DNA from: Anaerolineae bacterium | GTDB taxonomy: Bacteria > Chloroflexota > Anaerolineae > UBA4142 > SHND01 | Direction of reading: 5' to 3' | NCBI GenBank assembly: GCA_020851635.1 | Contig: JADZCJ010000004.1 | Coordinates: forward strand, 1 to 37,530 | Length of the DNA: 37,530 bases | Part shown: one piece after another, positions 115 to 34,782 of the stretch | How positions within the stretch are numbered: the first letter of the stretch is position 1 | How the letters are laid out: every line of letters starts with the position of its first letter | Program-made: the position numbers and the translations under genes | Notes under the pieces: generated by a model | The model's input: only the letters and a program-made list of their open reading frames with translations | Told to the model about the DNA's origin: nothing | Databases searched by the model: none

Positions 115-951
115 CTAATCGGAAATCGCCGACTCGTGCCAATATAGCAGACGTTTTTCAAGCCAACTCACCAGGGCGGTTAAAAAAATGCCCATGCCGG
201 CGAGCACAACCACCGCGGCGAATACAGAGACCTGTTGCAGGTTCGCAGCCGCCGTAAAGACGACGCGCCCCAGCCCTTCCCCTGCTCCTGCCCACTCTGC
301 CACCAGCGCGCCAATCACGGCGAGACTTACCGAAGTCTTGAACGCGGACAGCACATACGGCAGTGCGTGCGGCGCGCGCAGTCGCCAAAACACTTCAAAT
401 TCGGATGCAGATACACTTTCCAGAAATTCGAGCGACGTTGGGTTGACCGAACGCAGCCCCACGATGGTATTCACAAGGATGGGGAAAAAACAGAGGAGTG
501 CAGCCATCACGATTTTGGGCGTGGGTCCATACCCCATCCATATAATCAGGAGCGGCGCAATGACAATCATCGGGGTCGCTTTGATCAACACAACAAGCGG
601 AAACACGGTCCGCTCCATAAAACGCGATCTGGCAAGCACGGCGGCGATGACCATTGCCACGATAGCGCCAAAGAGGAAACCGGCGACAGCTTCGTAAAAC
701 GTCACGACGCCGTTCCGAAAATAATAACTCGCGTTTTCGACGAGCTCTACAAATACAGCCGATGGCTTGGGGAGGATGATGGGCGAAATGTTTTGAACGG
801 TGACGATGATCTCCCAAAGCAGTCCGAGACTGATCAAAAAGAGCGCGGGGGGCAGCACAGATTCGACCAGGTAGCGCCAGCGCGTATCTGTCCGCTTGAC
901 CTCTTTGACCGCACCGCCGTCCGCGACCAGTTCACGCATCTGTTCCGCCAT
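115..951 (-). CDS. ABC transporter permease, NitT/TauT (SsuC/TauC-like) family
   Basis: Inner-membrane permease of an importer for a small organic anion or related solute, pairing with the ATPase encoded just upstream. The protein has about six hydrophobic segments after a charged N-terminus of roughly 30 residues. It carries the BPD_transp_1 cytoplasmic-loop signature (EFEVFWRLRAPHALPYVLSA), which couples to the ATPase. Length is normal for SsuC/TauC/ThiX proteins. An ATG exists at 957, but the GGGAGG on the coding strand touches it and sits six bases before the second ATG at 951, so 951 is the better start. The gene overlaps the end of the ATPase gene, which implies translational coupling. 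No periplasmic binding protein is visible in the window; it may lie to the left. The substrate cannot be read from sequence. Family call is firm. Confidence 0.93.
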   Translation of the reverse strand: MAEQMRELVADGGAVKEVKRTDTRWRYLVESVLPPALFLISLGLLWEIIVTVQNISPIILPKPSAVFVELVENASYYFRNGVVTFYEAVAGFLFGAIVAMVIAAVLARSRFMERTVFPLVVLIKATPMIVIAPLLIIWMGYGPTPKIVMAALLCFFPILVNTIVGLRSVNPTSLEFLESVSASEFEVFWRLRAPHALPYVLSAFKTSVSLAVIGALVAEWAGAGEGLGRVVFTAAANLQQVSVFAAVVVLAGMGIFLTALVSWLEKRLLYWHESAISD

Positions 952-1732
952 TTCCATCCTCCCGCAGCAATCGCTTTAGTTTTTCGTGATATTCGAGAAA
1001 CTCGGGCGTGCGTTCGATCTCTTCTGTGCGTGGGCGCGGCAGTTTGATTTCCACCACCCCGCGCACACGTCCCGGTCGCGCGGACATCACCGCGACAACG
1101 TCCGACAGGATTATGGACTCGGGGATGCTGTGCGTCACAAACACAACAGTTTTGCGCGACCGTTCCCAAATCCGCAGCAGCTCATAGCGCATCGCCGCGC
1201 GGGTGATTTCGTCCAGCGCGCCGAACGGCTCATCCATCAGCAAGATGCGCGGGTCGAACGACAATGCGCGCGCAATCGCCACACGCTGCTGCATCCCGCC
1301 CGACAACTGGTACGGGTATGCGTCCTTGAACGCGCTCAACCCCACCAATTCCAACAGTTCCGCCGTCGAATGTTGGAGCGGCTTGTTCGCCTTGCGGTTC
1401 ACCGTCAGCGGCACTTCGATGTTTCCCGCCACCGTTTTCCACGGCAGCAGCCCGGGGTCCTGAAAGACAAAACCAAATTCCTTGGCGCGCTGGGCATGAT
1501 GAGGCGTCTCGCCATTGCCGATGGTCACTTTGCCTGTCGTCGGCTCGATCAGTCCGCCCATGATCCGCAGCATCGTGGACTTGCCGCATCCGCTCGGACC
1601 CAGCACGGAATAAAACTGACCCGCACCGATACGCAAATACACATTGTCGAGCGCCCTGACCTGGATTTGCCCCTTGCCGCTCGCAAATACTTTATTCAGG
1701 TTTTGAATGACGATTTGATCTTGAGCAGACAA
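932..1732 (-). CDS. ABC transporter ATP-binding protein, NitT/TauT (SsuB/TauB-like) family
   Basis: Cytoplasmic ATPase that powers the permease encoded next to it. All nucleotide-binding motifs are intact: Walker A GPSGCGKST, Q-loop FQDPGLLPWK, signature LSGGMQQR, Walker B LLMDEP and the switch histidine in FVTHS. The PGLLPW sequence after the Q-loop is typical of the nitrate/sulfonate/taurine group. At 266 residues it has normal family length with no regulatory extension. It lies about 20 bp after the FGGY kinase gene and overlaps the permease start, so it belongs to the grd-kinase operon. The ABC subfamily is clear, but the transported compound is not. Confidence 0.95.
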   Translation of the reverse strand: MSAQDQIVIQNLNKVFASGKGQIQVRALDNVYLRIGAGQFYSVLGPSGCGKSTMLRIMGGLIEPTTGKVTIGNGETPHHAQRAKEFGFVFQDPGLLPWKTVAGNIEVPLTVNRKANKPLQHSTAELLELVGLSAFKDAYPYQLSGGMQQRVAIARALSFDPRILLMDEPFGALDEITRAAMRYELLRIWERSRKTVVFVTHSIPESIILSDVVAVMSARPGRVRGVVEIKLPRPRTEEIERTPEFLEYHEKLKRLLREDGNGGTDA

Positions 1733-1752: not shown

Positions 1753-3204
1753 TCATGGGGGACCCGTGACGACGTTCAATTTCGCATACAAAGGTTTCAC
1801 GCTCGTATACAATTCGCGATACACCCCATACAGGTCCTGATAACGGGCGTGGTTTTCGCGGTTCGGCTCGATCACTTGCTGCGGTCGCATCATCGCTCTA
1901 GCTCCGCGCCCAAAATCCTCAAATACGCCGACGCCCACTCCCGCAATCATGGCGGAGCCCAACACCGCCGCCTCTGTCACCTGCGGAACAACGATGCGCG
2001 TACCCGTTACGTCTGCTTTGATGCGGCACCACAGCTCGCTCGTCGCTTGCCCACCGCAGCAATGAATCTCATCCACTCTCGCGCCTGCGGTTTCGATCTG
2101 GTCCATAATGTGCCGTATCGAATACCCGACCGCTTCCAGAATCGCGCGGGTCATGTGTGCGCGCGTGTGATTCAGCGCCAGACCAAAAAATACCCCGCGC
2201 GCCGTCGTGTCCCATAACGGAGCCCGCTCGCCCGCCAAATACGGCAGAAAAATCAATCGCTCGCTGCCGTCTTGCGCCGCGCCCGCCTGCTCGACCATGG
2301 ACCAATCATCTGGCTCTGCGTAAAGCACATCGCTGCGCCACCAGTCCAGCGCGCGCCCCGATGTAAAGGTCGGACCGCCGAGATAAAACGAGCGCCCATC
2401 AAAGGATGGGATGCAGAAAATACCTTGCGCCGCAAGCGGCTCATCCCAGCACACATTAAAACTCTGCGAGGTCCCGCCATTGTCACACGCAACGCCCCGA
2501 CCCACCGCGCCGCTTCCCAAAATCCCGCCAAAATAATCAGTGATGCCGCCAATCACGGCAAGACCCTGCGGCAGTCCGGTCAATTCCGCGGCGCGCGACG
2601 TGACCGATCCGACCCGCTGACCCATCTCGCGCGTCTCGGGAAGTTTCCGCTCGTCGAGCTCTGATGTCTGCACCAGTCCCGCATCCCACGGCGTCACGCT
2701 CGCCCAGGTTGAGACCACCGGCTCGCCGGTCAGCTGCATCGCCACAAAATCCCATGCCTGGCAAAACCAGCGCGCCCGCGCATATGCGTCAGGGTTCGCT
2801 TCCGACAGCCACATTACTTTGGCAAGGAACGAATGGGACGGCACAGTCCGTTTTGCCCGCTCGGTCAGCGTTTGCGCGTGTCCCGCGGCCCGACGGTCCA
2901 TCCACGTCAGCGCCGGCGCAACCGGTGTCAGCGTTTCATCCACCGCCACCATGGTGGGACCCTGTCCGCCGACACAGACCCCCAGAATCGCGCCCGGCTC
3001 GACCTGTGCGGTCGTTTCTCGTATTGCTCTGACAACGTGCTGCCACCACTCGCGCGGGTCCTGTTCCGCCGCGTCCCCGTCGGTGCGCAGAGCGTCCGGA
3101 TAGTTCGCGACGCGCATTGCCGCCGCGCGCCCATCTATCCCGAACGCGCCCACCTTGACGCGCGTCGTCCCCACATCAATCCCCAACAGCAGCGGTCCAG
3201 TCAC
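1753..3204 (-). CDS. FGGY-family carbohydrate kinase (xylulokinase/LsrK-like)
   Basis: Cytoplasmic kinase that phosphorylates a sugar, polyol or related hydroxy compound with ATP. The N-terminal FGGY domain opens with the phosphate-binding motif GIDVGTTRVK (residues 8-17). The C-terminal half has the second actin-like nucleotide fold, with DNGGTSQSF, a LPYLAGERAPLWD segment typical of xylulokinase relatives, and GGQATSELW. At 483 residues it matches the family. Translation appears to start at GTG (3204-3202), one base after the TAG of the dehydrogenase gene, so the two genes are tightly coupled. With the LsrF-like aldolase two genes upstream it recalls the LsrK/LsrF pairing of autoinducer-2 degradation. 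The Grd genes and missing Lsr transporter argue against the AI-2 pathway itself. Specificity is unknown. Confidence 0.9.
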   Translation of the reverse strand: MTGPLLLGIDVGTTRVKVGAFGIDGRAAAMRVANYPDALRTDGDAAEQDPREWWQHVVRAIRETTAQVEPGAILGVCVGGQGPTMVAVDETLTPVAPALTWMDRRAAGHAQTLTERAKRTVPSHSFLAKVMWLSEANPDAYARARWFCQAWDFVAMQLTGEPVVSTWASVTPWDAGLVQTSELDERKLPETREMGQRVGSVTSRAAELTGLPQGLAVIGGITDYFGGILGSGAVGRGVACDNGGTSQSFNVCWDEPLAAQGIFCIPSFDGRSFYLGGPTFTSGRALDWWRSDVLYAEPDDWSMVEQAGAAQDGSERLIFLPYLAGERAPLWDTTARGVFFGLALNHTRAHMTRAILEAVGYSIRHIMDQIETAGARVDEIHCCGGQATSELWCRIKADVTGTRIVVPQVTEAAVLGSAMIAGVGVGVFEDFGRGARAMMRPQQVIEPNRENHARYQDLYGVYRELYTSVKPLYAKLNVVTGPP

Positions 3205-3205
3205 G

Positions 3206-4255
3206 CTATGGATTCACCACCACCCGGTACGTGCCCAAATCCACCGATGCTTCGAACGCCGGGGTAATCTCATCCAACGAATACGTCGCCGAAATGACAG
3301 AGCGCAAATCCAGAGCGCGCGAGCTCACCACCTGCGCCGATTGTTGAAACTCGATCGGCGAGGTGCTGATCGTGCCAGTCAACACAATCTCGTTGTCGTG
3401 AAACCAGTTTGGGTCCAGATTCAACAGCGCGCCCTTGGGCTCCATCCGCGCATACACCATCACGCGCCCCCCCTTTGCCAGCGCGCCGAACGATGCTTGC
3501 AGCGCGGGCACATAACTCGTCGCCACCACAATCACGTCCGCGCCCCGCCCGTTCGTCAGCCCTTTGACCTGTTCCGCAAAATCACCCGCATTCGGATCAA
3601 TCGCCGCCGACGCGCCAAATTTCAGCGAGTCCGCGCGCCGTCCCGCGTGCGGCTCGCTCACGATCACTTGCGCGCCGCGCCCTTTGCACACCATGACATG
3701 CAAGAGCCCCATCACGCCGCCGCCGACAATTACCACCGAATCACCCGCGACCACATTCGCCTTGTTCACGCTCCGCAGGACGCAGGCGAGCGGTTCGGTC
3801 AATGATGCTTCCAGCAAATCCGCGTCGGGAGAGAGCTTGAACACCTGGTATTCTTTGGCGAGTTTGTGCGTCGCCAGCCCGGCGGGACCCATCGGACCCT
3901 TTGGTTTTTCGCCGCCTGCACGCTTGAACCACACATTTTCGCACGCATATCCGCGCCGGCACGAATAGCAGCTGCCGCAGCGATCAATCGCCCAAATAGC
4001 CACCTTGTCGCCCGTCTTGATGTTGACGACCTGCGGTCCCGTCGCTTCCACGACGCCCGCCATCTCGTGCCCGCCATACAGAGGATAAAAACGCGTGTCC
4101 GCGCCCGTGAACGCCCGCTGTTCGAACGTGCATAGCGCCGAATGTCGCACGCGCACCAACACATCATCCCCAGCCAACCCCGGCAGCGCCGATTCTTCGA
4201 TCTCGACGCGTCGAGGTCCGACAATCACCGCTCTTCGCATCAATTCAGTAGCCAT
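3206..4255 (-). CDS. Zinc-dependent medium-chain dehydrogenase (threonine/sorbitol dehydrogenase-like)
   Basis: NAD(P)-dependent alcohol/polyol dehydrogenase of the MDR superfamily. The GroES-like N-terminal domain has likely catalytic zinc ligands Cys42 and His63-Glu64 (GGHEMAG). The structural-zinc cysteines are Cys93, Cys96, Cys99 and Cys105 in DRCGSCYSCRRGYAC. The Rossmann domain carries GGGVMG near residue 177. At 349 residues it has normal length. The gene sits between the class I aldolase and the FGGY kinase, which fits oxidation of a hydroxyl on the compound the operon degrades. Substrate and coenzyme preference cannot be assigned. The 137-base gap between it and the aldolase gene contains a short AATCAAAAATC-type repeat. 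Confidence 0.92.
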   Translation of the reverse strand: MATELMRRAVIVGPRRVEIEESALPGLAGDDVLVRVRHSALCTFEQRAFTGADTRFYPLYGGHEMAGVVEATGPQVVNIKTGDKVAIWAIDRCGSCYSCRRGYACENVWFKRAGGEKPKGPMGPAGLATHKLAKEYQVFKLSPDADLLEASLTEPLACVLRSVNKANVVAGDSVVIVGGGVMGLLHVMVCKGRGAQVIVSEPHAGRRADSLKFGASAAIDPNAGDFAEQVKGLTNGRGADVIVVATSYVPALQASFGALAKGGRVMVYARMEPKGALLNLDPNWFHDNEIVLTGTISTSPIEFQQSAQVVSSRALDLRSVISATYSLDEITPAFEASVDLGTYRVVVNP

Positions 4256-4392: not shown

Positions 4393-5190
4393 CTAGTCCC
4401 GCAACAGCTCCATCGCCTCTTCCACCGACACGCCGCCATGCACAATCGCCACAACCGCTTGTGTCATCTGCTTTACTCTGGCGTGCCCCCAAATGTTGCG
4501 CCCCATTGCCACCCCGCGCGCGCCCGCATCAACCGCCTCGCGCACCGTCCGCAGCGTGCCCGCATCGTCCTGGCTCTTGGGTCCGCCGAGCACCACAACG
4601 GGCACAAAACAGTTCTCGATCACCCTTTGAAAACTCTCGCGACTGCCCGTGTATTGCGTCTTGACAATATCCACACCCAGTTCCGCGCCCACACGCGCCG
4701 CCAGCGCCAGTGTTTCGGGCAGTCGCGCATCCTCGCCGCCTTCAAACCCGCGCGGCAGCATTTCACCCATCAGCGGCAAACCCCAATTCACACACTGTTT
4801 GCTTAATGCGGCGAGATACGACAGATTCTTGTCTTCGTTTTCCGAACCCGGAAAACCCATCACCACAACCCCGTCCGCGCCGAGTTTCAAAGCCGTTTCC
4901 GCATCATTGATCAGACTGCCGCGCCACGCCTTGCTGCCCAGCTTGGTCGCCCCGCCGTCTACCCGCAGAATCATCGCAGTCGGCATCAGCGGCTCGGCAA
5001 ATTTTTGCGCGATCCCCACCGTCGTCATGATCGCATCCGCGCCGCCTTCCACCACTTGCTCGATCAGCGGCAGCGGGTTCTCCAGCCCCGGTTGAATTCC
5101 AAAATATGCTCCGTGGTCCATCGCCACGATCACCGCGCGTCCCTCCGCCGAAAAAATTCGGCGCATTCGTCGCATTTTTCCAATGCTCAT
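4393..5190 (-). CDS. Class I aldolase/thiolase, DeoC/FbaB (LsrF-like) family
   Basis: TIM-barrel Schiff-base aldolase of the DhnA/FbaB/LsrF group, expected to cleave or transfer the carbon chain of a phosphorylated keto compound. Recognisable points are VAMDHGAYFG near the N-terminus, the likely Schiff-base lysine Lys177 in DIVKTQYTG, and the phosphate-binding C-terminus VVVLGGPK and GVAMGRNIWGH. At 265 residues it is slightly shorter than E. coli LsrF. It lies 64 bases after grdB and 137 bases before the dehydrogenase gene on the same strand. Kinase plus aldolase points to a phosphorylated intermediate split into two smaller metabolites. Fructose-bisphosphate aldolase activity is possible, but the neighbourhood argues for a specialised substrate. 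Confidence 0.9.
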   Translation of the reverse strand: MSIGKMRRMRRIFSAEGRAVIVAMDHGAYFGIQPGLENPLPLIEQVVEGGADAIMTTVGIAQKFAEPLMPTAMILRVDGGATKLGSKAWRGSLINDAETALKLGADGVVVMGFPGSENEDKNLSYLAALSKQCVNWGLPLMGEMLPRGFEGGEDARLPETLALAARVGAELGVDIVKTQYTGSRESFQRVIENCFVPVVVLGGPKSQDDAGTLRTVREAVDAGARGVAMGRNIWGHARVKQMTQAVVAIVHGGVSVEEAMELLRD

Positions 5191-5254: not shown

Positions 5255-6568
5255 TTACGTTTCAAAGATGGTTTGTTTTTCGATCCGAGCTGCCAACGCA
5301 TCCAGCGAAACTTGCATCACGCGTTTGCGCCATTCCAATTCGTGTTCGGGGTCTTGGGTCGGGTCTCCGGTCGGGTGCGGGATCCGTCCCGCGCGCACGA
5401 TCCGATTTGCGCCGACGGCGGTCGCAACCGATGTCATCGCCGTAATCACAACGGCGGGGAGTCCTTCCCGTTCGATTTCTTTGACGAGCGTTGCGCCGCA
5501 ACGCGTGCCCGTCCCTCAGGTAGCTGTAATAATGATGCCTTCGATGCCCTCTTGCTTCATCCGGTTCGCCATCGCGCGCCCGATTTCCGTGCCCGTCGCA
5601 ATCGGCATCCCGCACCCTACGGTTGAAAAGAATGCATCATACAATTCTGCAAACGCGCCGCCCTTTTCCAGTACGCGCAGCGCGTCAACGGGGACCATGC
5701 GGTTCGGGTCCGCATTTGCAAACCGCGCGTCATATCCGCCGTGCGCCGATTCGTATCCACCCGCCGCAAGCGTGTCCATTCCAAGTATCGAGTAGGTTTG
5801 CCATCGGGTCGCGCGCACCGATTCGATATGGTCGGGATTTCCGGTCGGCACCGTGCCGCCTTCTGTGCCCACCGCAATTGTCGCGTGTTTCAAATCGTTC
5901 ACGGGGTTCGCGGGCGTAACGCGGTCATAGGTCGGCACACGCAGCTCGGTCTCGTATGGTTCGCCGCGCACCTTGCGCAGCAGCATTTGCACGCCGCGCT
6001 TGGCAGCCGTCTCTGGCACAAATACATTGCGCCGTTTGCCGCTCGGCAAATATCCTTCTTGCGCGGGCGTCCCGAGGGTTTCGCCGCGCGCCAATTTCAA
6101 ACCCAGCCGCGCCATCGGCGCAACCGCCTCGCGCATTTTCGCCGCCGTGCCGCCCGTCGGGACCACATAAATATACGGCGCATACACTTCGGCGGCAGGA
6201 TTTTCAGGGGCAACACCCGTGAGCGCAGGAATGCCCAGTTTTTCGTGCGCCACCACGCAAATCTTGCCGCACGCCATTCCATAACGACCCGAATCGAATG
6301 CGGGTCCCGCAATAATCAAGTCGGGCTTGTCGTCCGCGATCTGCGCAATCAAATCATCGGCGACGCGGTCGGCGTTTTCGTTAAAATAGGTGTCACCGCA
6401 CAAAATCGTCGCGACGATCTCTGCGTCCTGCCCAAATGCCGCCTGCAGCGCCCGTCCCGGACCCACCGCGCCTGCGCGCCGTTCCGGACGCGCGTCCGCC
6501 TTGTCCTCGCCGCCGATTCCGGCAAAGAACTGGTTAATGTAATGAACAACCCGAATTTTTTCGCTCAT
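5255..6568 (-). CDS. grdB: Glycine/sarcosine/betaine reductase component B selenoprotein subunit (GrdB-like), in-frame UGA as selenocysteine
   Basis: GrdB is the selenoprotein subunit of component B, which with pyruvoyl-carrying GrdE products binds an amine substrate and reductively cleaves its C-N bond. The reading frame begins MSEKIRVVHYINQFFAGIGG, the usual GrdB N-terminus, with substrate-domain hallmarks CGDTYF, AGPAFDSGRYG and GGTVPTGNPDHIES. A TGA at 5516-5518 interrupts the frame at residue 351, close to where selenocysteine sits in characterised GrdB. Reading through gives TATUGTGTRCGATLVKEIER and then a normal GrdB C-terminus (VGANRIVRAGRIPHPTGDP) ending at 5255, for 437 residues. 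A good stem-loop follows the TGA. The ATG at 6568 overlaps the oxidoreductase stop by four bases; a longer upstream start would add a low-complexity tail. The cysteine I expect three residues after Sec is glycine here. The specific substrate is unknown. Confidence 0.9.
5483..5513 (-). promoter_or_regulatory. Candidate bacterial SECIS element just after the grdB UGA codon
   Basis: On the coding strand the UGA (5518-5516) is followed by an apical stem of seven perfect pairs, GCGTTGC with GCAACGC (5488-5504), closing a GGC loop. A lower stem GACG/CGTC (5510-5513 with 5483-5486) lies below an asymmetric internal loop. The loop begins 19 bases after the UGA and its first base is G, matching the general bacterial SECIS model (short apical loop with G in the first two positions, within a few tens of bases of UGA). 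The stem also lies in coding sequence, so pairing is constrained by the protein. No folding energy was calculated. Confidence 0.65.
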
Positions 6569-7899
6569 CGTTTCCCTGCCACCATCTCCGCCACCCTCTC
6601 CCCCGAGCTCACCGCCGTCTCTTGCGAAGGAAAAATCCCCGTACAATCTCCCGCCAGGAACAATCCATCCCCCCACTCTATCGGCAGCGGCTGTTGGTTC
6701 GGCTGCGGCGCCGCCACGGCGGGACAAATCTTGTATTCGAGCACCTGCTCGTAGCGTTCGCCTTCAAACATCCTGCTCAACGGCTTGTCCGCGCCCGCGC
6801 CTCGATAGGTCAAGACGTTAAAATACTTTAGCCCCTGCGCATCCGTTTGCGCTTCACCGCCAAACAACACCGCACCTCCGTACCCCTCGGCTCGCCAGAG
6901 GTGGAGATTGCCGGGCACATTAGTCTTGCCGTGCAGCAGCCGCGCCGAGCCGCTTCCATACACCACGGCGCCCATTCTTGCGCGCATTTCCGGCACAACT
7001 GCGGCAGCCGCGTTCGCCGGAATCGCCACGACCAATCGCCGGGAACGCACCAGATGTATCACCTCGTCCTGTCTGTAATGCGTCACAAACCCGTCTGCGT
7101 CGCGTTCTACGGCGAGCGCCTGCGCGTTCGTTTCGATCAGCCCGTTCAAACGCGCCGCCAGCGCTTCGGGCAGCTGCATCAGCCCACCGGTCAAATTGGC
7201 GGGGTGACTCAGGTTGAATCCGAGCAGCAGCACTCCAAACGCGGCGGAAATTGTTTCGGGTGCGCTGAACGTGAACGCAATAAACGGGTCAATAAATTTC
7301 CGCCTTAAACTCTCGCCAAATCCAAATTGCGCCGCCCAATCGCTCACGGAACGGTCGTGCAGCGCCAAGAGTTCGTCAAAATGGGTGGGAGACGTCACGC
7401 GGCGCATGTAAAAATAAAATCGCAATAACTGCGCCGCTTCGCCCGGCGTAAAGACGCCCCGCCCCACCAGACCCCGCGCCCCTTCCGCGACCAGCGCGAG
7501 ATTGTTTGCGTGCATCACACGCCCGTCAATGCCCAATACCATCTCGCGCCGCGGAATGATCCGCACCTTGTCGCGCAGCCCCAGCTCGTTCACCAGCGCC
7601 ATATATCGCGGATACGCTGACGGTTGAAACGTCACTGCGCCCAGATTCAAAACATTCGATTCAATTTTTAAACTGCGTACGCGTCCCCCTACCGAGGGTT
7701 CGCGTTCCAACACCATCACATCATCCTGTGTGCAAGGTTTCGCGACTGCTTGCGTATAGCGGTACGCGCACGTCAACCCCGCCAGCCCTGCCCCCAAAAT
7801 CAACACCTGCGTTTGATGTTCTCTCTGCGCCCCGCCCGAGAAATCCTTGTCCTCCGGACTCTGGTCAAACGAAAACCGCTCTCCAAACGCAATCGCCAT
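6565..7899 (-). CDS. FAD-dependent oxidoreductase, flavin amine oxidase/protoporphyrinogen oxidase-like
   Basis: Flavoprotein with the FAD-binding Rossmann motif VLILGAGLAGL near residues 32-42, preceded by about 30 extra residues, then the VLEREPSVGGRV second glycine segment of the amine-oxidase superfamily. The C-terminus has GLFLAGDCTGIFPSQETAVSSGERVAEMV, the usual second FAD-contacting segment. There is no signal peptide or clear membrane helix, so it is probably cytoplasmic. It sits between grdE and grdB, with its stop overlapping the grdB start by four bases (ATGA), which strongly links it to component B. It could oxidise the substrate before cleavage or supply electrons to the selenoprotein. 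Both ideas are inference, because known glycine reductase operons use thioredoxin and thioredoxin reductase for electron supply. Confidence 0.88.
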   Translation of the reverse strand: MAIAFGERFSFDQSPEDKDFSGGAQREHQTQVLILGAGLAGLTCAYRYTQAVAKPCTQDDVMVLEREPSVGGRVRSLKIESNVLNLGAVTFQPSAYPRYMALVNELGLRDKVRIIPRREMVLGIDGRVMHANNLALVAEGARGLVGRGVFTPGEAAQLLRFYFYMRRVTSPTHFDELLALHDRSVSDWAAQFGFGESLRRKFIDPFIAFTFSAPETISAAFGVLLLGFNLSHPANLTGGLMQLPEALAARLNGLIETNAQALAVERDADGFVTHYRQDEVIHLVRSRRLVVAIPANAAAAVVPEMRARMGAVVYGSGSARLLHGKTNVPGNLHLWRAEGYGGAVLFGGEAQTDAQGLKYFNVLTYRGAGADKPLSRMFEGERYEQVLEYKICPAVAAPQPNQQPLPIEWGDGLFLAGDCTGIFPSQETAVSSGERVAEMVAGKR

Positions 7900-8008: not shown

Positions 8009-9280
8009 TCAATACGCTTGCGCCATCATGTAACCCGCACCCAACTGGTTCGTCGAGCAGTACACCTTGTCCAGCATGATTTCGCGCGCCTGCGTCGCGG
8101 GTTGCGCCGTGTCCAGATACGCCACCCCGCCCAACACTTTGGCGATTTCGGGCAGGAGAATCGTCTTGTCACAGCTCCCCGTGCTCACAATCGTTTCCGC
8201 TTCCGGCACGCTGTCCACCAACGGAAAGTCTTTGCCCTCGGGACCGCCCAACTCGTAGGTAATCACCGTCGTCTTGATGCCGATGCGTTCACATTCCTGG
8301 AGCGTCAGCATCATGTCAATTGCCGAATTGCCCCCGCCTTCGCCCGTCAGCACCACGCCGTCCGCTTTCAAAAATTCGGCGAGCTTGGCTGCGTAATTTG
8401 CCGCGCGCTGTTTTTCCGCCTGCGTGTAATTGTGCCCGCGATAAAAAACAACGCCTGCAAAATCCAACGACTTGCTGTGCTCGGCATACAATTCCTTGAT
8501 CACGGGATTGTTCAAATGCAGATACGTCGGATTTTTGAAACAGGCATAGACAAAATTGGCGCTCACAATCGCCCCGTCCATCGTTTCGTTCGGGTGAATC
8601 AGCGTCGGCACAATATTATTGATTTGAGTTCCGTACAACAACGTGTCGGCGAGCGTCCCCTGCGATTGCGCTTGATAGATATACACGATGCGCGGCAGGT
8701 CTCGCTCGGTGGGCGTCAATTCATAGACCTCACTGCGGTCCGGCTCACGGCCGCCCACCTGTTGTGCAAGGTATTCTGCGAGGCGAAGCGACGCCACACG
8801 CATGGCGGAATCAAAATCGGCATTGTTGGCGCCGGGAGCAGGGACAAAATGCAGCACGAGGTTGGCGGTCGAGGAAAAAATCGAATACGTCGCGGCGGGA
8901 CCACTCATGTCCACCACCGCTTCGCGCGCCTGGAGCAGCCCACCGACCGGGACGGGGAACTCGGCAGTGGTCAGGATCGCCATCCCGTCCAGGCGGCATG
9001 TGCTCCCCGAACCCACCGTTGTGGGGTCGCCGAGCACACCGGGAAAGATTCGCCCGCGTCCCTCGAGCTTGCAGCGCGGCTCGACGGCGTCCAGCAGATG
9101 CACGATCCGCACCTCGTCGCCGGGGTGCGTGATCGCAATCTCGACATCCGCAATGGCCGGATGTTGGGTCAAGAGCGCGGAAATTTCGGCAAGATTCAGA
9201 TAGAGAGTGGCGTCAACGAGGCGCGTCCGGTCGGAAAATTCAAGCCGACGAACGGAAAAGGTGTCTAGTTGTAGGCGCAT
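8009..9280 (-). CDS. grdE: Glycine/sarcosine/betaine reductase component B proprotein (GrdE-like)
   Basis: GrdE is a proprotein that cleaves itself at a conserved cysteine to give two subunits, one carrying an N-terminal pyruvoyl group that forms a Schiff base with the amine substrate. The probable processing site is Cys247 in NFVYACFKNPTYLHLNNP, at nearly the position known for GrdE. Other hallmarks are GRGRIFPGVLGDPTTVGSG (near 74-92), FVPAPGANNADFDSAMR (145-161) and VLTGEGGGNSAIDMM in the C-terminal part. At 423 residues it is full length. It is the first gene of the operon, with a good promoter about 45 bases upstream and no clear Shine-Dalgarno sequence. Betaine- and sarcosine-specific homologues look much the same, so specificity is open. 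Confidence 0.92.
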   Translation of the reverse strand: MRLQLDTFSVRRLEFSDRTRLVDATLYLNLAEISALLTQHPAIADVEIAITHPGDEVRIVHLLDAVEPRCKLEGRGRIFPGVLGDPTTVGSGSTCRLDGMAILTTAEFPVPVGGLLQAREAVVDMSGPAATYSIFSSTANLVLHFVPAPGANNADFDSAMRVASLRLAEYLAQQVGGREPDRSEVYELTPTERDLPRIVYIYQAQSQGTLADTLLYGTQINNIVPTLIHPNETMDGAIVSANFVYACFKNPTYLHLNNPVIKELYAEHSKSLDFAGVVFYRGHNYTQAEKQRAANYAAKLAEFLKADGVVLTGEGGGNSAIDMMLTLQECERIGIKTTVITYELGGPEGKDFPLVDSVPEAETIVSTGSCDKTILLPEIAKVLGGVAYLDTAQPATQAREIMLDKVYCSTNQLGAGYMMAQAY

Positions 9281-11289: not shown

Positions 11290-14200
11290 TTAGTCCTCCC
11301 CCAACTCTACTTTTCCCTCATTCCAACGCACCATGCCGCTGATCACCAGATTCTCCATCGCCACCCCAATCCGCCGCTTGACCCTCTCACTCGCGCGCGG
11401 GTATCCCAACAATCGCGCCGTCAGCAGCACCCAGTCCTCTTGCGTCAACGACAACGCGTTTTTCAAATTCAAATACGCCGCACGGGCGATCTCTTCCAGC
11501 GCAATCTCCTGGATCGGACGCGGCTCGTCGCCCGGCGCGGGCTGCCGCACCACCACATCCATCGTCACAGGCGACCACAAGAAATCATCCCGCAGCAGCA
11601 CGCGTCCCTGCGCGATCAGCGCCGCCAGCATCCCATCCAAATGGCTCTCGACCGCAGGCGTCACGCGCGCAATGCCCCAGCAGCCCGCAATTCGCCGCGC
11701 CGCCGCATTCCAATGGATCGGACCCTCCTGGTCTGCCAGTTGCGCAAACAACCCTTGAAACGTTCGCTCGTGCGCGCGATAAAATTGCTCGGGCGTGCCC
11801 TGCCGCGCCAGCGCGACGGGCGCATAGATCGCCATCCCCGTCGGCACAAGCGCGCCGCCGTGCATGCCGTTCCCGTTCGCCGCGGCGTTCGTTCGCTGGG
11901 AATGGAGCGCGTTTTTTGCCCGCCATTCCCAGGCATCGGCGGGTGTGTCCAACACTGTGACCATCTGCTCGATTCGCTCCAGCTCCACATCCCGATTCGC
12001 CAACCAATCGCGCGCTCGCAGGCGATACACCTTCCACCCCAATTGCTCGAGGACCTGCACTCTCAGTCGCTCCCGCTCGCGCGCCGTGTTTGCATTGCGA
12101 TAGCCGTCCCCTTCCAACTCGATTCCCAGTCTATACCGTCCCTCGTCTTTGGCATCCACCAACGCCAGGTCCAGGCGCTCACTCCCCGCCCCCACCCGCG
12201 CGCGGACCTCGAACCCGCGCTCGCGCAGCGCATTCTGCACCAGTTGACGCAGTTCTGCTTCATCCCCGCCCGCGTCCGTTTCCGTCGGCGCAACCGTCCA
12301 TTCTGCCCGCCCTTGCTGCGCCGCATATTCCATGTATGCGCGCAGCAGCTGCGCGCCGCGGCTGTTTGTTCGCGTCAGGTCCAGGTCCACAGGTAAAATT
12401 GAACTCACCAATTTCACCTGGTCGCGCGCCCGCGTCACTGCCACGTTCAACCTTCGCGCTCCATCCTGTCCGTTCAACGGACCAAAATTCATTGTCAGCG
12501 TCCCGTTCAGGTCCCTGCCATAGCCGACGCTAAAGAGCATTACGTCACGTTCATCACCCTGCACATTTTCAAGACTCTTGATAAAAAATCCTTCGCTCCC
12601 TTTGCCGTTCAAATGCGTTTCAAATTCAGGATGCTCGTGGATCAACTTTTGCAATTCCAGATCGATCGCTCCGCGCTGCGCCTGGCTGAACGTCACGACA
12701 CCCAGCGAACGCTCGGGCGATTGCGTAAAATGCTCCAGCACCAGTCCCGCCACGCGCCGCGCTTCAACCACATTGGTCCGCGTGTTGGCGCGGTCATACA
12801 CCCCATCCGGCACATGCACCAACTCGACCCCCAACCGCGCGTCATGCGCCGCCGCATTCGGAAAGGTCACCAACCGGTCCTCGTAAAAATAATGATTCGA
12901 GAAACCCAACAACGCTTCGTGCCGACTGCGATAATGCCATTTCAAGCACACACTCGGCAAGACGATGGACGCTTCCTGCAGCAAACTCTCCAACACCATC
13001 GGCTCACCCACTTCTTGCTCTTCCAACTCGCCCAACGTTTGAAAAAATGGCGTCGGCGGCAGCTGTTGGTGATCGCCCGCCACGATGACTTGTTTTGCCC
13101 GCACAATTGCCGTCACCGCTTCTTCGGGCGGGATCTGTGACGCCTCATCAAAAATAACCAGGTCAAACATTACAGGCGCGGTCGCCAGATACTGGCTCAC
13201 CGACAGCGGGCTCATCATCAAGCACGGCTTGAGCGCCAGCAAAAGATTTGGAATCTCTGCCGCCAACCGTCGAATGGACTTGTGATGTTTCCGCTTTGCC
13301 ATCTCACGCTTGAGCAGCGTCACCTCCGAGCTCGGCGCGTCGCTCCACCCTATCGCGGGCCGCGCCGCCGCCAACTTGGTCACCAATCGTTCGCGCGCGA
13401 TCCTGAGCTGCTCCACATCTGACCGGCAGAATTGCGCCGCCCCCTTGCGATACACCTTTTCACCCTGTTCCAAGATGGGCGTCCGGGCATATACCCCGTC
13501 CAACCACAAGCGATAAAACCGTTTCAAGAACGCGGGTTTCAATTCGTCGCTCGGCAGTTTCGCCGCCCGCGCCGATTCCAAAAACGCGCCCCCGCCCAGT
13601 CTTGTCAGCTCTTTGCACTCGGCTCTCAGCGCCAGCCACATCTCCAGCTCGCCCACTCGCTCCAGCCGCAGCGCGAGCCAGCTCCGCACCACACTCAGAG
13701 TCTCGGCATACAAAACAGAGACCCAATCCGGAAAAAGATGCGCCAGATAATCCCATTCGCGTCGCCATTCCTCACGCACCGCCTCGAACTTTAGTATCAG
13801 AGGACGTTTCGCATTCAATCGCGCAGGACGGTTGCACACCAGGTTTGTCAGCCCCTCCGGCACGCTCTCGGGCGCAAAAAGGGCGGACAGCTCATCCACC
13901 CAGTTCAACTGCGTCAGGACCACGCCCCAGTCCGTCTCGCGTCCTGTAAATGCCCGCTCAAAGCGCGTCCGATACTCTGCCTGTCGTTCCTCGATTCGTC
14001 CGGTTCGTTCCTGCAGCTCCACCGCCTCCCGGACCGCCTCGATTGCGCTTGACGGCTCCACAGCTTCTTGTCCCCGACGCGCGGCGCGCACCAGTGCCAT
14101 GTCTTGCCGGTATTGTCCATCCAGAATGCGCAGGGGCTTGCCTTGTGCCGCCTCCAACCGCGTTTTTATCTCGACAAGGTCACTGCGCTCCAAAAACTCG

Positions 14201-16362
14201 TCTGTGTATCGCTCCGACCACCTTGCATACGCTTCGCCATATTCGCGCGCTTGCTTTTGCGCCTCCCACGCCAGCGCGCGCAGCTCGGACGTCTCACCCG
14301 CGCGAAACCATCCGCTCGGCGGCATCGGTGTTTCCAGCGCATGTTTCGCAATCGCGGCAAGCCGGTCAATACCCTCACAAGTTGCCGGTTTCGGCAGTCC
14401 AAACGACTCGGCAACTTGCTCTGCGGTGGTTTCCAACCCGGTCAACGCGCGCATCAGTTCACCCAGGCGATACTCTATCGCCGTCCGCGTGTGAAACGTA
14501 TATTTGGTCAGCTCCACCCCGCGCCAGGGGTTCGCCTCTTGCTGTTCCCACACCTCGCCGCGCGCCGCGAGATTCTCCAGTGACTCGTCCAACGCCGCAA
14601 ACTGGCTTGCGTCAATCGTCTCAACCGCAGGCAGCTCAAAATAAAGTTCAGGCGCATCGCCCAATCGCGCCAGCGTCACATATACATGAAACGGCGATTT
14701 ATTCAACGGCGCGACCGGCGTGTGCAGCGCGCGCGCATACGCATTCAATTCATCACGTAACTCTGCCAGTTGCGCCAATCGTTCCAGAGCGGGCGCATGT
14801 TCGGGATACGACTCGTACAACGCCTGTCCCAGTTGCGCGACCAGCGCCCCCCGGCTCGAGTTATGGCTGTGTGCCTCCAGATAAAAATTCGCCAGCCCGC
14901 ACTGTCCCAATCGTTTCGCCACCACATCCAACGCCGCCATTTTGGCGCTGACAAACAACACCTTTTTGTTTTGCGCCAATGCCTCGGCAATGATATTGGC
15001 AATGGTCTGGCTCTTGCCCGTTCCCGGCGGACCCTCGATCACAAAATTCGCGCCGCGTTTTGCCCATTCGATCGCCACCTGCTGGCTCGAATCCGCATCC
15101 AGCACTTGAAAATTCTCTGCGGGCCGAGTCCGGTCATCCAGGTCGCGCGCACCGGGCAGGTCGGTCGGGGGCGCGGGCAGCTGTGATGGGTCACCCGCCA
15201 ACGCCCGCAAAACCGGATGCGCCTCGATCTGTTGGGCATGTGCTTCCAAATCTCTGAGCATCACCAATTTTTCAAACGAATACAATTCCAAATAAACGTC
15301 CGGCGTAATCCTCCATGTCGGCAAATCCGGCAGGGCAGCGCGAATCAAGTCAAACACACCGCTCGGCGTCAGCCCTTCGCTCTCTTCCGGCAAGCGCGGC
15401 AGTTGAATTCGAAAATCCATATAGAGTTTGTGCGCCAGCGTCGGGTTCAACAAAATATCTTCATCCCGAATCGTCAGCGTAAACGGCTGTGTCACCGCCT
15501 GACGGTCCAACTGCACCGGCGCCAGCAGCAGCGGCGACTGCGCCGCTTCGCGCGTCGTCGGATCCACCCAGTGCAGCAAGCCAAACGACAAGAACAAAAC
15601 ATTCACCCCCTGCTCTTCCAGCGCCGTGCGTGCGTGCGCGCGCAGGTTATACAAGGTCGTCGCCAACGCCCCCTCATTCAACATCGTCCGCAGCTCATTC
15701 CGCCGACCCCCAATCTTTTCCGGCTCAGCAAGAGACTTGGCATCTCCCTCCGTCGGACCGGTCTCTTGTTCAGCAAGACAGATCACCGCAGAAATCTCGA
15801 CTCGCTCAACGGGAATCTGATTTCGAGCCGCAATGTCCTGCATCGCAGAAATATCCTCGCCGTCGGGACCGTTGTCATTTCGCGTCGCGAGGGGTTCTCT
15901 CGCTGCAATGTCCTCTATCGCAACGATGTCTTCCATCGCAGCGATGTCTTCTACCGCAGCGATGCCCTCCATCGCAAAAATCCCCTCACCGTCAGGACCC
16001 TTGCCATTTCGAGCGGCGCGAGAAACCTCTGCGCCCGCATCAATCGAACTCCCATTTCGCCCCGCGCCGTGCTCGATTGCCGCAATGCTCTCAATTGCCG
16101 CAATGCTCTCAATTGCCGCAATGCTCTCAATTGCCGCAATCTCTTGCCCTTCCTCAGGCAACGCGCCCCCTTCCTCATCCTCCCTCCCCACAAACGTCAG
16201 TTTTTTGCCTTTTTGCGCCAACGCCTCAAAAATCTCATCCGCGCCCGGCGCGACGATTTGCGCATGTCCCCGCCGCGGCGTCAGATACAACAGACGATTA
16301 CGCCTGCTCGTATCAAGCAGGCGTGTTTTCCAAACCGCAAATTTTTCCATCAATTCTGACAT
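11290..16362 (-). CDS. DUF4011 / superfamily 1 helicase / Vsr-like nuclease / DUF3320 protein
   Basis: Large cytoplasmic protein (1690 residues) predicted to unwind and probably cut nucleic acid. The N-terminal DUF4011 part starts MEKFAVWKTRLLDTSRRNRL. The SF1 helicase core has Walker A GPPGTGKS (444-451), Walker B VIFDEAS (Asp1072-Glu1073), motif III AGDHQQLPPT, motif V ENVQGDERD and motif VI VAVTRARDQ (about 1309). A Vsr/MTES_1575-like endonuclease domain follows (about 1370-1460), with LDLALVD and LGIELEGDGY supplying acidic residues. DUF3320 ends the protein (about 1500-1690). Related DUF4011-helicase-nuclease proteins occur in anti-phage systems such as Mokosh relatives. The N-terminal part is interrupted by a repeat-rich insertion (about residues 75-190). 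It is the last gene of a tight S41-HTH-helicase run. Exact function is unknown. Confidence 0.9.
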   Translation of the reverse strand: MSELMEKFAVWKTRLLDTSRRNRLLYLTPRRGHAQIVAPGADEIFEALAQKGKKLTFVGREDEEGGALPEEGQEIAAIESIAAIESIAAIESIAAIEHGAGRNGSSIDAGAEVSRAARNGKGPDGEGIFAMEGIAAVEDIAAMEDIVAIEDIAAREPLATRNDNGPDGEDISAMQDIAARNQIPVERVEISAVICLAEQETGPTEGDAKSLAEPEKIGGRRNELRTMLNEGALATTLYNLRAHARTALEEQGVNVLFLSFGLLHWVDPTTREAAQSPLLLAPVQLDRQAVTQPFTLTIRDEDILLNPTLAHKLYMDFRIQLPRLPEESEGLTPSGVFDLIRAALPDLPTWRITPDVYLELYSFEKLVMLRDLEAHAQQIEAHPVLRALAGDPSQLPAPPTDLPGARDLDDRTRPAENFQVLDADSSQQVAIEWAKRGANFVIEGPPGTGKSQTIANIIAEALAQNKKVLFVSAKMAALDVVAKRLGQCGLANFYLEAHSHNSSRGALVAQLGQALYESYPEHAPALERLAQLAELRDELNAYARALHTPVAPLNKSPFHVYVTLARLGDAPELYFELPAVETIDASQFAALDESLENLAARGEVWEQQEANPWRGVELTKYTFHTRTAIEYRLGELMRALTGLETTAEQVAESFGLPKPATCEGIDRLAAIAKHALETPMPPSGWFRAGETSELRALAWEAQKQAREYGEAYARWSERYTDEFLERSDLVEIKTRLEAAQGKPLRILDGQYRQDMALVRAARRGQEAVEPSSAIEAVREAVELQERTGRIEERQAEYRTRFERAFTGRETDWGVVLTQLNWVDELSALFAPESVPEGLTNLVCNRPARLNAKRPLILKFEAVREEWRREWDYLAHLFPDWVSVLYAETLSVVRSWLALRLERVGELEMWLALRAECKELTRLGGGAFLESARAAKLPSDELKPAFLKRFYRLWLDGVYARTPILEQGEKVYRKGAAQFCRSDVEQLRIARERLVTKLAAARPAIGWSDAPSSEVTLLKREMAKRKHHKSIRRLAAEIPNLLLALKPCLMMSPLSVSQYLATAPVMFDLVIFDEASQIPPEEAVTAIVRAKQVIVAGDHQQLPPTPFFQTLGELEEQEVGEPMVLESLLQEASIVLPSVCLKWHYRSRHEALLGFSNHYFYEDRLVTFPNAAAHDARLGVELVHVPDGVYDRANTRTNVVEARRVAGLVLEHFTQSPERSLGVVTFSQAQRGAIDLELQKLIHEHPEFETHLNGKGSEGFFIKSLENVQGDERDVMLFSVGYGRDLNGTLTMNFGPLNGQDGARRLNVAVTRARDQVKLVSSILPVDLDLTRTNSRGAQLLRAYMEYAAQQGRAEWTVAPTETDAGGDEAELRQLVQNALRERGFEVRARVGAGSERLDLALVDAKDEGRYRLGIELEGDGYRNANTARERERLRVQVLEQLGWKVYRLRARDWLANRDVELERIEQMVTVLDTPADAWEWRAKNALHSQRTNAAANGNGMHGGALVPTGMAIYAPVALARQGTPEQFYRAHERTFQGLFAQLADQEGPIHWNAAARRIAGCWGIARVTPAVESHLDGMLAALIAQGRVLLRDDFLWSPVTMDVVVRQPAPGDEPRPIQEIALEEIARAAYLNLKNALSLTQEDWVLLTARLLGYPRASERVKRRIGVAMENLVISGMVRWNEGKVELGED
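15897..16142 (-). repeat. 18-bp tandem repeats inside the helicase gene
   Basis: Four near-perfect copies of an 18-bp unit (plus strand CTCAATTGCCGCAATGCT) run from 16072 to about 16142. Diverged copies (15911-15928, 15929-15946, 15947-15964, 15965-15982) form a second block. Each unit adds six residues (ESIAAI, EDIAAM and similar) in frame, between conserved DUF4011 segments. Sequences around the blocks (CATTTCGAGCGGCGCGAGAA and a diverged copy near 15877) resemble an intergenic repeat. The array probably varies in copy number between strains. Confidence 0.9.
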
Positions 16363-20424: not shown

Positions 20425-21522
20425 TTAGAGTCTCAGCGACGCAATCAATTTCTTTAATCCCTGTTGATAACGGTTGTCGCTCCGCGTCCAGCCGCGAAAA
20501 TCCGCCGCCACGCGTTCCTCGACCAGCCGCTTGTGCGGGTGCTGCCACGCCGTGTACAAAAAGTCATCCAGCAGGACCGGATAAAACACATCCTTGTGCT
20601 CCATCCGCTCGCGCTTCAAATTTGTATCAATCTCGTGCACGATCGAGCGCGGGTTGAGCGAATGTTTCGAGCAGACAAAAATCACCTTGTCGAAAATTCG
20701 GTTATAGATTTGAATTTCCTGAAAAAATTCTTTGCTGCGTTTCGAGTGTTTTGGAAAATACCACGTCCGAATCCCGCGCGCTTGCAGGTCGGCATACAGA
20801 CGATCACAAAAACGCTGGTCCGCGCCCGCATAACTGATCGTGCAGGCATACATCTGCTGCTTTTGCCCTTCCAGCGATTTTACAAATCCGATAAAACTCT
20901 CGGGCACCCCTGCCCCGCGCATAAACACTTCCGGAATCTCGCCATGCGAACGATACACTGTATCAATTCCGATGCTGGAGGGTCCGCTGTGCCGCACCGT
21001 CGAAAGCCCGACCACCTCCGACATATCCACGTTCCCGAATTTCGTCTCGGCGGCCTGCGCTTCCAAAAACACCGCCCCCGTCAGATTGGCGCCAAAAAAA
21101 TTCGCCCCCGTCAGGTTTGCGCCCGTCAATTTCGCCCCACTCAGGTCCGCCCCGCTCAGGTCCGCCCCGCTCAAATTCGCGTCGCTCAACATCGCGCCGC
21201 CCAGGTCCGCGCCTCTCAGGTCCGCCGAGCGCAAAAACGCCCAATCCAAAATCGCCCCGCGCAGACTCGCGCCCCGCAAACACCCCTCTGACAGGTCCGC
21301 TTCCGACAAGTCCGCTTCGGTCATGTCGGCGCTGATCAAGTCCGCTCCGCGCATGATCGCCCCGCGCAGATTCGCCCACGTCAGGTCACACTCGCGCAGC
21401 GTCACATCGCTCAAGTCGGGTCTGAGGACCGACTCGTGAAGCCGCCATTCGTTCCAGGCGTTGACCCCCTCATACAAAACAGCCAAATGCTCTTGAGTAG
21501 CCATAAATAATTTGCCCGTCAT
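20425..21522 (-). CDS. Pentapeptide-repeat protein with C-terminal TIR domain
   Basis: Protein of 365 residues. Residues about 40-175 are pentapeptide repeats of the A(D/N)LxG kind (for example ADLSGADLSGAKLTGANL) that fold as a right-handed beta-helix. A linker (IGIDTVYRSHGEIPEVFMRGAGVPESFI, given in two parts: IGIDTVYRSHGEIPEV, then FMRGAGVPESFI) is typical of a known pentapeptide-TIR family. The TIR domain (about 224-365) starts CTISYAGADQRFCDRLYADL and has a candidate catalytic Glu297 in RSIVHEID. Many bacterial TIR domains cleave NAD or make nucleotide signals during defence; that activity is not demonstrated here. The start at 21522 is chosen over an ATG at 21504 because the extra residues are few and either is possible. 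It lies 38 bases after the zinc-ribbon gene. Confidence 0.92.
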   Translation of the reverse strand: MTGKLFMATQEHLAVLYEGVNAWNEWRLHESVLRPDLSDVTLRECDLTWANLRGAIMRGADLISADMTEADLSEADLSEGCLRGASLRGAILDWAFLRSADLRGADLGGAMLSDANLSGADLSGADLSGAKLTGANLTGANFFGANLTGAVFLEAQAAETKFGNVDMSEVVGLSTVRHSGPSSIGIDTVYRSHGEIPEVFMRGAGVPESFIGFVKSLEGQKQQMYACTISYAGADQRFCDRLYADLQARGIRTWYFPKHSKRSKEFFQEIQIYNRIFDKVIFVCSKHSLNPRSIVHEIDTNLKRERMEHKDVFYPVLLDDFLYTAWQHPHKRLVEERVAADFRGWTRSDNRYQQGLKKLIASLRL

Positions 21523-25502: not shown

Positions 25503-25534
25503 ACAAAAAAAAGAGGCGGCTACCCTTTGCCGCC
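25503..25534 (-). terminator. Rho-independent terminator overlapping the ANTAR gene stop
   Basis: On the minus strand GGCGGC (25534-25529) and GCCGCC (25520-25515) pair across an eight-base loop that contains the TAG stop, followed by TCTTTTTTTTG. The stop codon of the regulator lies inside the hairpin. Confidence 0.85.
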
Positions 25535-26119
25535 CCCTTTTTTCGCTCTACTCTCTTTCTCATGCCGGTCCAAAATTTCCTGCGCCACCTGCTGCATCGT
25601 CACTCGCCGCGAACGACTGGCGCGGTGAATCTTGTTGAACGCCTGCTGTTCGGTCAGATTCTGCTGCTCTATCAACACATACTTGGCTCGATCCACCACC
25701 TCCCGCGCCTCCAAACTCCTCGTCAGGTCCTGCGCCTGCCGCTGCAGTTTTTGCCATTCTTTGAAACGCGTCACTGCCAAAGCGAGCGTCGCGTCCAGCA
25801 ATTCTTCCTTGACCGGTTTCACCAGATAGCCAAACACCGCTGCTTCGCGCGCCTCGTTCACCAGTTCGCGTTGACTAAAAGCGGTCAACATCACCACCGG
25901 CGTCGGTCGCTCTTGCATGATTCTGCGCGCCGCCGCCAGACCATCCATCCCCGGCATCTTGATATCCATCAAGATCACATCCGGGCGCTCGCTGCGCATC
26001 ATCTCTATCGCCGACGCGCCGTCCGTTGCCGTCGCCACGACCTTGTGCCCCTTGTCCTCCAACATCGTGCGCAAGCCCATGCGGATTACCGCCTCATCAT
26101 CTGCAATCAAAACCCTCAT
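25520..26119 (-). CDS. Response regulator with ANTAR RNA-binding domain
   Basis: Receiver plus ANTAR protein of 199 residues. The receiver domain (1-120) has phospho-acceptor Asp52 in VILMDIKMPGMDG and the lysine in YLVKPVKEE. The ANTAR domain (about 125-185) has DLTRSLEAREVVDRAKYVLI and LTEQQAFNKIHRASR, a three-helix domain that binds paired hairpins in mRNA leaders and prevents termination in EutV, NasR and AmiR. A lysine/glycine-rich tail ends the protein. It starts 15 bases after the histidine kinase, with GGGAGGG upstream. Its place after the amt-glnK-glt genes suggests these as targets, and the amtB leader has hexaloop hairpins. Confidence 0.95.
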   Translation of the reverse strand: MRVLIADDEAVIRMGLRTMLEDKGHKVVATATDGASAIEMMRSERPDVILMDIKMPGMDGLAAARRIMQERPTPVVMLTAFSQRELVNEAREAAVFGYLVKPVKEELLDATLALAVTRFKEWQKLQRQAQDLTRSLEAREVVDRAKYVLIEQQNLTEQQAFNKIHRASRSRRVTMQQVAQEILDRHEKESRAKKGGGKG

Positions 26120-26134
26120 CCGACCAACCCTCCC

Positions 26135-27799: not shown

Positions 27800-27914
27800 G
27801 TCAAATCGCTTTTCCGACTGCGCGAACGTCCGTTTCGCTCACGGAATTTTCTCCAAATATACAACGCCGCGACATCGGCGCACATTGCGCGACATACGAT
27901 AAACATTCACCCTT

Positions 27915-28790: not shown

Positions 28791-28859
28791 ATCGAGTTCT
28801 CTTGTTGGCGTTACAACCATCGTCGCGCCCAATTTCCAAAGACCAAACCATCCTCCCGG

Positions 28860-32654: not shown

Positions 32655-32746
32655 CAGCTCGTCTCCTCATATCCCAGCTTTTTCGCCGCTTGATCTTGCG
32701 GGCGCAGGGGCGCCCCTCAAAGGAAAAAGTGTCTTGCGAACGCCCG

Positions 32747-32962
32747 TTACGAACTCGTGTGCGTGTTCGAGTCGGACGCGCGCAGGGATTCGTCACTGGC
32801 GTTCTTGTGCGTCCCCGCCACATATCGCCGCGCGCCTTCGATAAAGATCACTTGTTTGCAAATCACGCAATTGCTCTCGTCCAACGCATACGCAAATGCC
32901 ACTTCTTTGTCAAAGACGTTCGAGACCTGACGAAGATGTTTCTTGCACAAACCGGGTTGCAT
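32747..32962 (-). CDS. Small zinc-ribbon-like protein in the nitrogen operon
   Basis: Unrecognised protein of 71 residues. It has Cys in PGLCKKHLRQV and the pair CVICK in ESNCVICKQVIF, plus His in KKHL, a pattern that could hold one zinc ion. The tail is Ser/Asp/Asn-rich. The ATG at 32962 is chosen; the longer version starts at a TTG inside a large inverted repeat and is rejected. It lies between the PII gene and gltB on the same strand. Its presence in this operon suggests a regulatory or assembly role, which is inference from position only. Confidence 0.6.
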   Translation of the reverse strand: MQPGLCKKHLRQVSNVFDKEVAFAYALDESNCVICKQVIFIEGARRYVAGTHKNASDESLRASDSNTHTSS

Positions 32963-32986
32963 TTTTGATTCTCTTTCTCGCTCCCG

Positions 32987-33024
32987 GGCGTCATCACCCG
33001 TCAACTCGTGCGGGTGATGACGCC
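32987..33024. promoter_or_regulatory. 14-bp perfect inverted repeat between PII and zinc-ribbon genes
   Basis: GGCGTCATCACCCG (32987-33000) and CGGGTGATGACGCC (33011-33024) are exact complements with a ten-base spacer. No T-tract follows on the minus strand, so it is not a standard terminator. In the RNA it would form a strong hairpin about 25 bases before the small gene, possibly a processing, stability or partial attenuation element. Confidence 0.75.
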
Positions 33025-33085
33025 GTTGGGCGATCTGCTACAAATACATAACAACAACTATAGGTCCGACCGGTCCTGAATCCGC

Positions 33086-33499: not shown

Positions 33500-33513
33500 T
33501 TTGATTGGCTCCT

Positions 33514-34737: not shown

Positions 34738-34743
34738 TACTGT

Positions 34744-34770: not shown

Positions 34771-34782
34771 CATCTGGGCCGC

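Follow-up and report, generated by a model that had tools for sequence, protein, structure and literature searches.

The grdB-type gene in the stretch of DNA analysed here (37,530 nucleotides; hereafter the window) very likely encodes the selenoprotein GrdB of a component B, made by SECIS-directed recoding of an in-frame UGA and working in a system that is probably pyruvoyl-free and passes its product from GrdC to CoA. Judged by the sequences compared below, this system belongs to a branch of Grd selenoenzymes in Chloroflexota that lacks both GrdD and the pyruvoyl-forming Cys of GrdE. Selenocysteine in GrdB is a textbook trait; reading the UGA in this way corrects a probably truncated annotation, while the trait itself is already known and ordinary for the family.

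The grdB frame continues past an in-frame UGA

The features of the grdB region are as follows.

5255..6568, minus strand: grdB-type gene of 437 codons with UGA(Sec) at codon 351, for the substrate-binding selenoprotein of component B (PF07355, TIGR01918, translation)
5516..5518, minus strand: in-frame UGA, codon 351, the single TGA in the frame; Sec motif UGTGTRC
5478..5515, minus strand: SECIS element (Rfam RF01990, SECIS_4) immediately 3′ of the UGA, with the hairpin CGUUGC-GGC-GCAACG
6565..7899, minus strand: FAD-dependent amine-oxidase/protoporphyrinogen-oxidase-like protein (PF01593, 3e-25)

Translation of 5255-6568(-) with the TGA read as selenocysteine gave 437 residues and a stop. An earlier note on this DNA had placed the TGA at 5516-5518 and at residue 351, and translation bears out both the coordinates and the residue number. 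The 87 further codons that it counted after the UGA are 86 residues, with the stop codon as the 87th, and the two motifs it named there, GTRCGATLVKEIER and IPHPTGDP, are both found in the read-through part. Its warning that the gene is easily misannotated as truncated was apt: the mechanical ORF under the standard bacterial code spans 5516-6727 and ends at the TGA, and for the remainder 3′ of the TGA the mechanical list gives nothing of 80 aa or longer in the grdB frame.

Profile searches matched the window protein to PF07355 (GRDB; E 6e-139, 463.6 bits against a cut-off of 22) over residues 4-350 only and to TIGR01918 with 515 bits (cut-off 65), and the full-length curated models TIGR01918 and NF040794 reach residue 436, across the UGA. 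Passing curated cut-offs over its full length, the protein belongs to the GrdB selenoprotein family (PF07355/TIGR01918). The earlier note had called for an alignment with characterised GrdB. Alignments show the C-terminal read-through part to be conserved, and 101 homologues spanning the UGA site were compared; 19 of these come from Chloroflexota genomes, most of the others being from Bacillota and Synergistota. Rather than a true stop with nothing conserved downstream, UGA stands in the site column of all 101 homologues, with conserved sequence beyond.

The SECIS_4 match at 5478-5515(-) scores 39.8 bits against an Rfam gathering score of 38. The hairpin, CGUUGC-GGN-GCAACG, is almost invariant among homologues, and five of them carry paired stem changes (CGUAGC/GCUACG in L027 and L034, CGCUGC/GCAGCG in L050 and L109, AGAUGC/GCAUCU in L069); in a sixth, L105, the uppermost part of the stem is altered on both sides. 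Folded by itself, the 45-nt element is thermodynamically only mildly better than shuffled sequence (z = -1.9), and the case for the SECIS therefore rests on the covariance model and the comparison.

The window Sec motif UGTGTRC has the form UxxGxxC, in which the middle Cys of UxxCxxC is missing. UxxCxxC is common, not universal, in the GrdB family; it occurs in 89/101 homologues and in only 9/19 copies from Chloroflexota genomes. The STUG motif of the window GrdB has Ala instead of Ser.

An AlphaFold2 model of the read-through protein (13 sequences; mean pLDDT 84.7, pTM 0.57) places Sec351 between strand 344-348 and helix 352-367, at the helix start, and residues 361-437 are mostly at pLDDT 87-97; as modelled, the residues encoded beyond the UGA form an integral piece of the predicted GrdB fold. 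Searching the PDB with the window GrdB by phmmer gave no match, and Foldseek of the model returned weak Rossmann-like matches only (TM ≤0.3) and no close solved structure.

If the UGA were instead a true stop, leaving a functional 350-residue protein or marking a decaying gene, one would expect standard gene calling to halt there and the PF07355 match to end at residue 350, as both do. We consider this most improbable given that UGA is universal at the site among the homologues, that TIGR01918 and NF040794 run to residue 436, and that a SECIS and all Sec genes are present. Decoding as another amino acid such as Trp, through a code change, or a sequencing error is less probable still, and nothing was found in favour of either. 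The same UGA occurs in independent genomes of several phyla, and the stop of the adjacent FAD gene is a TGA that overlaps the grdB ATG (ATGA), so UGA also terminates in this genome.

Selenocysteine machinery and component A and C genes lie on other contigs

Contig C4, the window, belongs to a draft genome of 144 contigs (97.7% complete, contamination 3.2%). SelA, SelB, SelC and SelD, predicted by the earlier note to be encoded elsewhere, are all present: tRNA-Sec (selC) on C22 (69.5 bits; called tRNA-SeC with anticodon TCA by ARAGORN) and, each above its curated cut-off, SelB on C25 (348.7 bits), SelA on C65 (593.9 bits) and SelD on C107 (365.5 bits, with an in-frame UGA of its own). The genome thus has the very machinery whose lack the note had held would count against its reading. 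Homology, the conserved UGA, the SECIS and the Sec machinery all agree on a selenoprotein gene, as the note had proposed, and at the level of sequence they confirm selenocysteine as the predicted reading of the UGA in grdB.

Contig C38 encodes, in the order GrdC, thioredoxin, GrdA, a GrdC of 635 bits (cut-off 450) and a GrdA with an in-frame UGA within a CYVU motif, and a Grd complex could in principle be assembled in trans from the products of C4 and C38. The C38 cluster as a whole (L020, G000:C38, 1592-9992) comprises an isochorismatase-fold amidohydrolase, hydantoinase B, hydantoinase A, a CaiB CoA-transferase, GrdC, thioredoxin and GrdA(UGA), after which come aldehyde and acyl-CoA dehydrogenases; the component A/C genes there stand in another catabolic context than the component B genes of the window.

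There is a slim chance of misbinning, in which case the window contig would come from another genome than the Sec genes. GrdB was found in 0/5 same-genus relatives, and the contamination value would allow a stray contig. Against this, the same bin holds grdA, grdC and the thioredoxin gene on another contig, and the relatives lack grdA as well. Short interspersed repeats of the AATCNAAAATC type lie between genes in both contigs (window 4329 and 7973; L020 1558 and 8946-8973) and in 0/6 control loci, and G+C agrees between the two (0.583 against 0.582); these shared repeats and equal G+C argue that the two contigs are one genome. The conservation of the UGA and the SECIS would hold even for a misbinned contig.

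The window GrdB falls outside the curated substrate classes

The window GrdB scored below the cut-off of each substrate-specific model: 467 bits against 602 for TIGR01917 (glycine GrdB equivalog), 527 against 800 for NF040794 (sarcosine GrdF, the best full-length NCBIfam match) and 464 against 775 for NF040795 (betaine GrdH). It also fails both substrate motifs published for GrdB and GrdF (PMC9751293). Among Chloroflexota genomes, 0/20 GrdB copies (from 19 loci and one fragment) matched either motif, and the GrdB motif was matched by 70/82 other sequences, which include L112 from the same contig as L042 of G221. Motif filters in print thus overlook the whole Chloroflexota Grd branch. The label GrdB given by the earlier note is right at the family level only; the ordinary glycine reductase that it implied is contradicted by the missed cut-offs and motifs, by a GrdE without the pyruvoyl Cys and by the absence of GrdD, and the surrounding system is not canonical glycine reductase. 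The window enzyme system probably acts on a different compound, with a different end product.

GrdE lacks the pyruvoyl-forming Cys and GrdD is absent

The grdE-type gene of the window lies upstream of the FAD gene.

8009..9280, minus strand: grdE-type gene for a chain of 423 residues, without the pyruvoyl-forming Cys (PF09338, 5e-131; alignment)

In Clostridioides difficile GrdE, Cys242 becomes an N-terminal pyruvoyl group, seen in peptide 242-266 (PMC9908766), and this numbering holds in a GrdE sequence of the MRLELG type. Where clostridial GrdE reads SGNCVSACDKN, with Cys242, the window GrdE reads SANFVYACFKN, with Phe245. In the alignment the pyruvoyl-forming Cys is present in 0/14 Chloroflexota GrdE versus 78/80 others. 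The second motif Cys, C249, is retained in the window GrdE and might conceivably take over from the lost one. GrdE-type subunits without these Cys residues are also known from fluoroacetate reductase and from betaine GrdI (PMC10838667).

The GrdD model NF040747 had no match in the source genome and none above its cut-off in any of the 11 GrdB-positive Chloroflexota genomes, 9 of which have GrdA, with GrdC usually present too. A home-built clostridial GrdD profile found 71 ORFs in non-Chloroflexota loci and none in Chloroflexota loci. At grdC loci, GrdD was present in 60/62 non-Chloroflexota versus 0/8 Chloroflexota cases, and the two GrdD-less non-Chloroflexota loci stop at a contig end. GrdD bears the thiol that forms acetyl phosphate, and acetate kinase would be the user of that product. 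Acetate kinase was not detected in the source genome nor in 8 of the 10 other GrdB-positive Chloroflexota genomes, and it scored above cut-off in only one of the 11 (G077).

The absence of GrdD from the source genome alone could be a gap in the 144-contig draft; as a general cause such a gap is unlikely because GrdD is absent across 11 genomes. An unlikely reading, if by no means a negligible one, is that of an ordinary reductase of glycine or sarcosine yielding acetyl phosphate, with a GrdD that fell into a gap of the assembly or has diverged beyond recognition. It would fit the best full-length match to sarcosine GrdF at 527 bits, the presence of GrdC, GrdA and thioredoxin, and the hydantoinase A/B pair and isochorismatase-fold amidohydrolase of C38, which could feed sarcosine. 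That same score lies far under the GrdF cut-off, however, and the glycine score is below its own; both published motifs fail, the pyruvoyl Cys is lost, GrdD is absent in 11/11 genomes and the source genome shows no acetate kinase.

GrdC is a distant relative of the KAS III/thiolase enzymes. At its position 384, His is found in 7/8 GrdC from GrdD-less systems and Gln in most others. As a marker this residue is weakened by L049 (Synergistaceae), which has both His and GrdD, and we take His384 as a hint only of a GrdD-less system.

Neighbouring genes and clues to the substrate

Downstream of grdB, the window encodes on the same strand:

4393..5190, minus strand: DeoC/LacD-fold class I aldolase (DhnA/LsrF type)
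3206..4255, minus strand: zinc-dependent alcohol dehydrogenase-like protein
1753..3204, minus strand: FGGY sugar kinase-like protein, best match xylulokinase, below cut-off
932..1732, minus strand: ABC transporter ATPase of the nitrate/sulfonate/taurine type
115..957, minus strand: ABC transporter permease of the SsuC/TauC type

These same-strand neighbours (FAD oxidoreductase, aldolase, alcohol dehydrogenase, FGGY kinase and ABC transporter) suggest an imported organic compound. The FAD oxidoreductase and the aldolase stand beside none of the other GrdB loci examined, and for the alcohol dehydrogenase and FGGY kinase only isolated matches of 25-30% occur near other GrdB loci; since the window neighbours are not kept elsewhere, the substrate is not readable from a conserved cluster.

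The isochorismatase-fold amidohydrolase of C38 bears a distant similarity to N-carbamoylsarcosine amidohydrolase; together with the hydantoinase A/B genes there, it would be in keeping with the supply of a sarcosine-like compound. A route from creatinine or N-methylhydantoin to sarcosine was considered for these genes; they miss the curated models by far, and the route is only a lead.

Elsewhere in the window, pentapeptide repeats are fused to a TIR domain at 20425-21522(-), a possible signalling or defence effector. A nitrogen cluster at 25520-34803(-) comprises an ANTAR response regulator, a GAF histidine kinase, glutamate synthase, PII and an ammonium transporter; the GXGXG domain of the glutamate synthase (27915-28832) is an ORF separate from the rest (28860-32654), either a split gene or a frameshift. 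A short tandem repeat, AAIESIAAIESIAAIE, occupies about 16100-16250(-) within a large helicase-like protein (11290-16362).

A Chloroflexota branch of Grd selenoenzymes

A quick tree of 98 GrdB sequences, rooted at the midpoint, joins the 18 included from Chloroflexota genomes and a single Bacillota sequence, L120, in one group (SH-aLRT 100); within it the branch of the window GrdB is long, and which sequence is its closest neighbour is uncertain. Full-length GrdB was found in 1/60 near relatives and in 11/400 genomes sampled across the phylum, and the lack of GrdB in the same-genus relatives suggests that its loss or transfer is frequent. Several genomes hold more than one GrdB copy, five in G221 (L143, L144, L154), three in G122 (L142) and two in G318 (L148), with at most one GrdA found in each, which suggests that a single A/C core is fed from several substrates. 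The GrdB copies of L148 alternate with SBP_bac_5 solute-binding proteins. In G077 (L141), grdE, grdB, grdC, trx and grdA follow one another in a contiguous cluster. We found no description of a GrdD-less, pyruvoyl-Cys-less Chloroflexota Grd branch in the literature searched, a search with most subscription journals outside its scope.

Proposed mechanism

We propose that SelB and Sec-tRNA recode UGA 351 as directed by the SECIS hairpin that follows it. GrdB, as the Sec-bearing substrate subunit, would form component B together with the GrdE-like protein, whose gene lies two upstream of grdB; going by the family, component B most likely splits a compound X-CH2-COO(-) by selenium attack. As the GrdE lacks the pyruvoyl-forming Cys, substrate binding probably does not go through a pyruvoyl Schiff base. 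The carboxymethyl group would pass to the Sec of GrdA, encoded on the other contig beside GrdC and thioredoxin, as a carboxymethyl-selenoether, and GrdA, reduced by thioredoxin, would give an acetyl group to GrdC. With GrdD absent, GrdC probably hands the acetyl group to CoA rather than releasing it as acetyl phosphate.

More tentatively, and with rather less than even confidence, we suggest an old, separate Chloroflexota Grd branch without pyruvoyl and GrdD, in which GrdC alone would deliver to CoA, and whose substrate, other than glycine, sarcosine or betaine, would be imported by the adjacent ABC transporter. This wider pattern carries more weight than the UGA: loss of both the pyruvoyl Cys and GrdD would mean that acetyl phosphate formation, usually seen as the point of the system, is not universal.

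Comparison with known systems

GrdB and GrdE have been reported in Chloroflexota, from Dehalococcoidia of serpentinite springs (PMC9751293); the GrdB motif by which that survey selected its sequences fits none of the 20 copies from Chloroflexota genomes here, and its main text makes no mention of GrdC or GrdD. FarB/FarE of Cloacibacillus porcorum MFA1 (PMC10838667) share with the window system a GrdE-type subunit without the pyruvoyl Cys and a Sec motif without the usual Cys residues, but the window match to FarE is 152 bits against a cut-off of 675, and neither an MFS transporter nor a radical SAM gene is among the window neighbour genes examined. The sarcosine reductase subunits GrdF/GrdG are the best full-length NCBIfam match for both window subunits, yet these lie far under the curated cut-offs (527 vs 800; 334 vs 780) and the GrdF motif is unmatched. 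Compared with GrdB and glycine reductase of Clostridia and Synergistota, the window system differs in an identity of about 52% at most, in its UxxGxxC motif, in a GrdE without Cys242, in having no GrdD and in carrying its B and A/C genes on separate contigs, whereas it shares with them the protein family, the position of the UGA, the SECIS, the GrdE partner, GrdA (CxxU) and GrdC.
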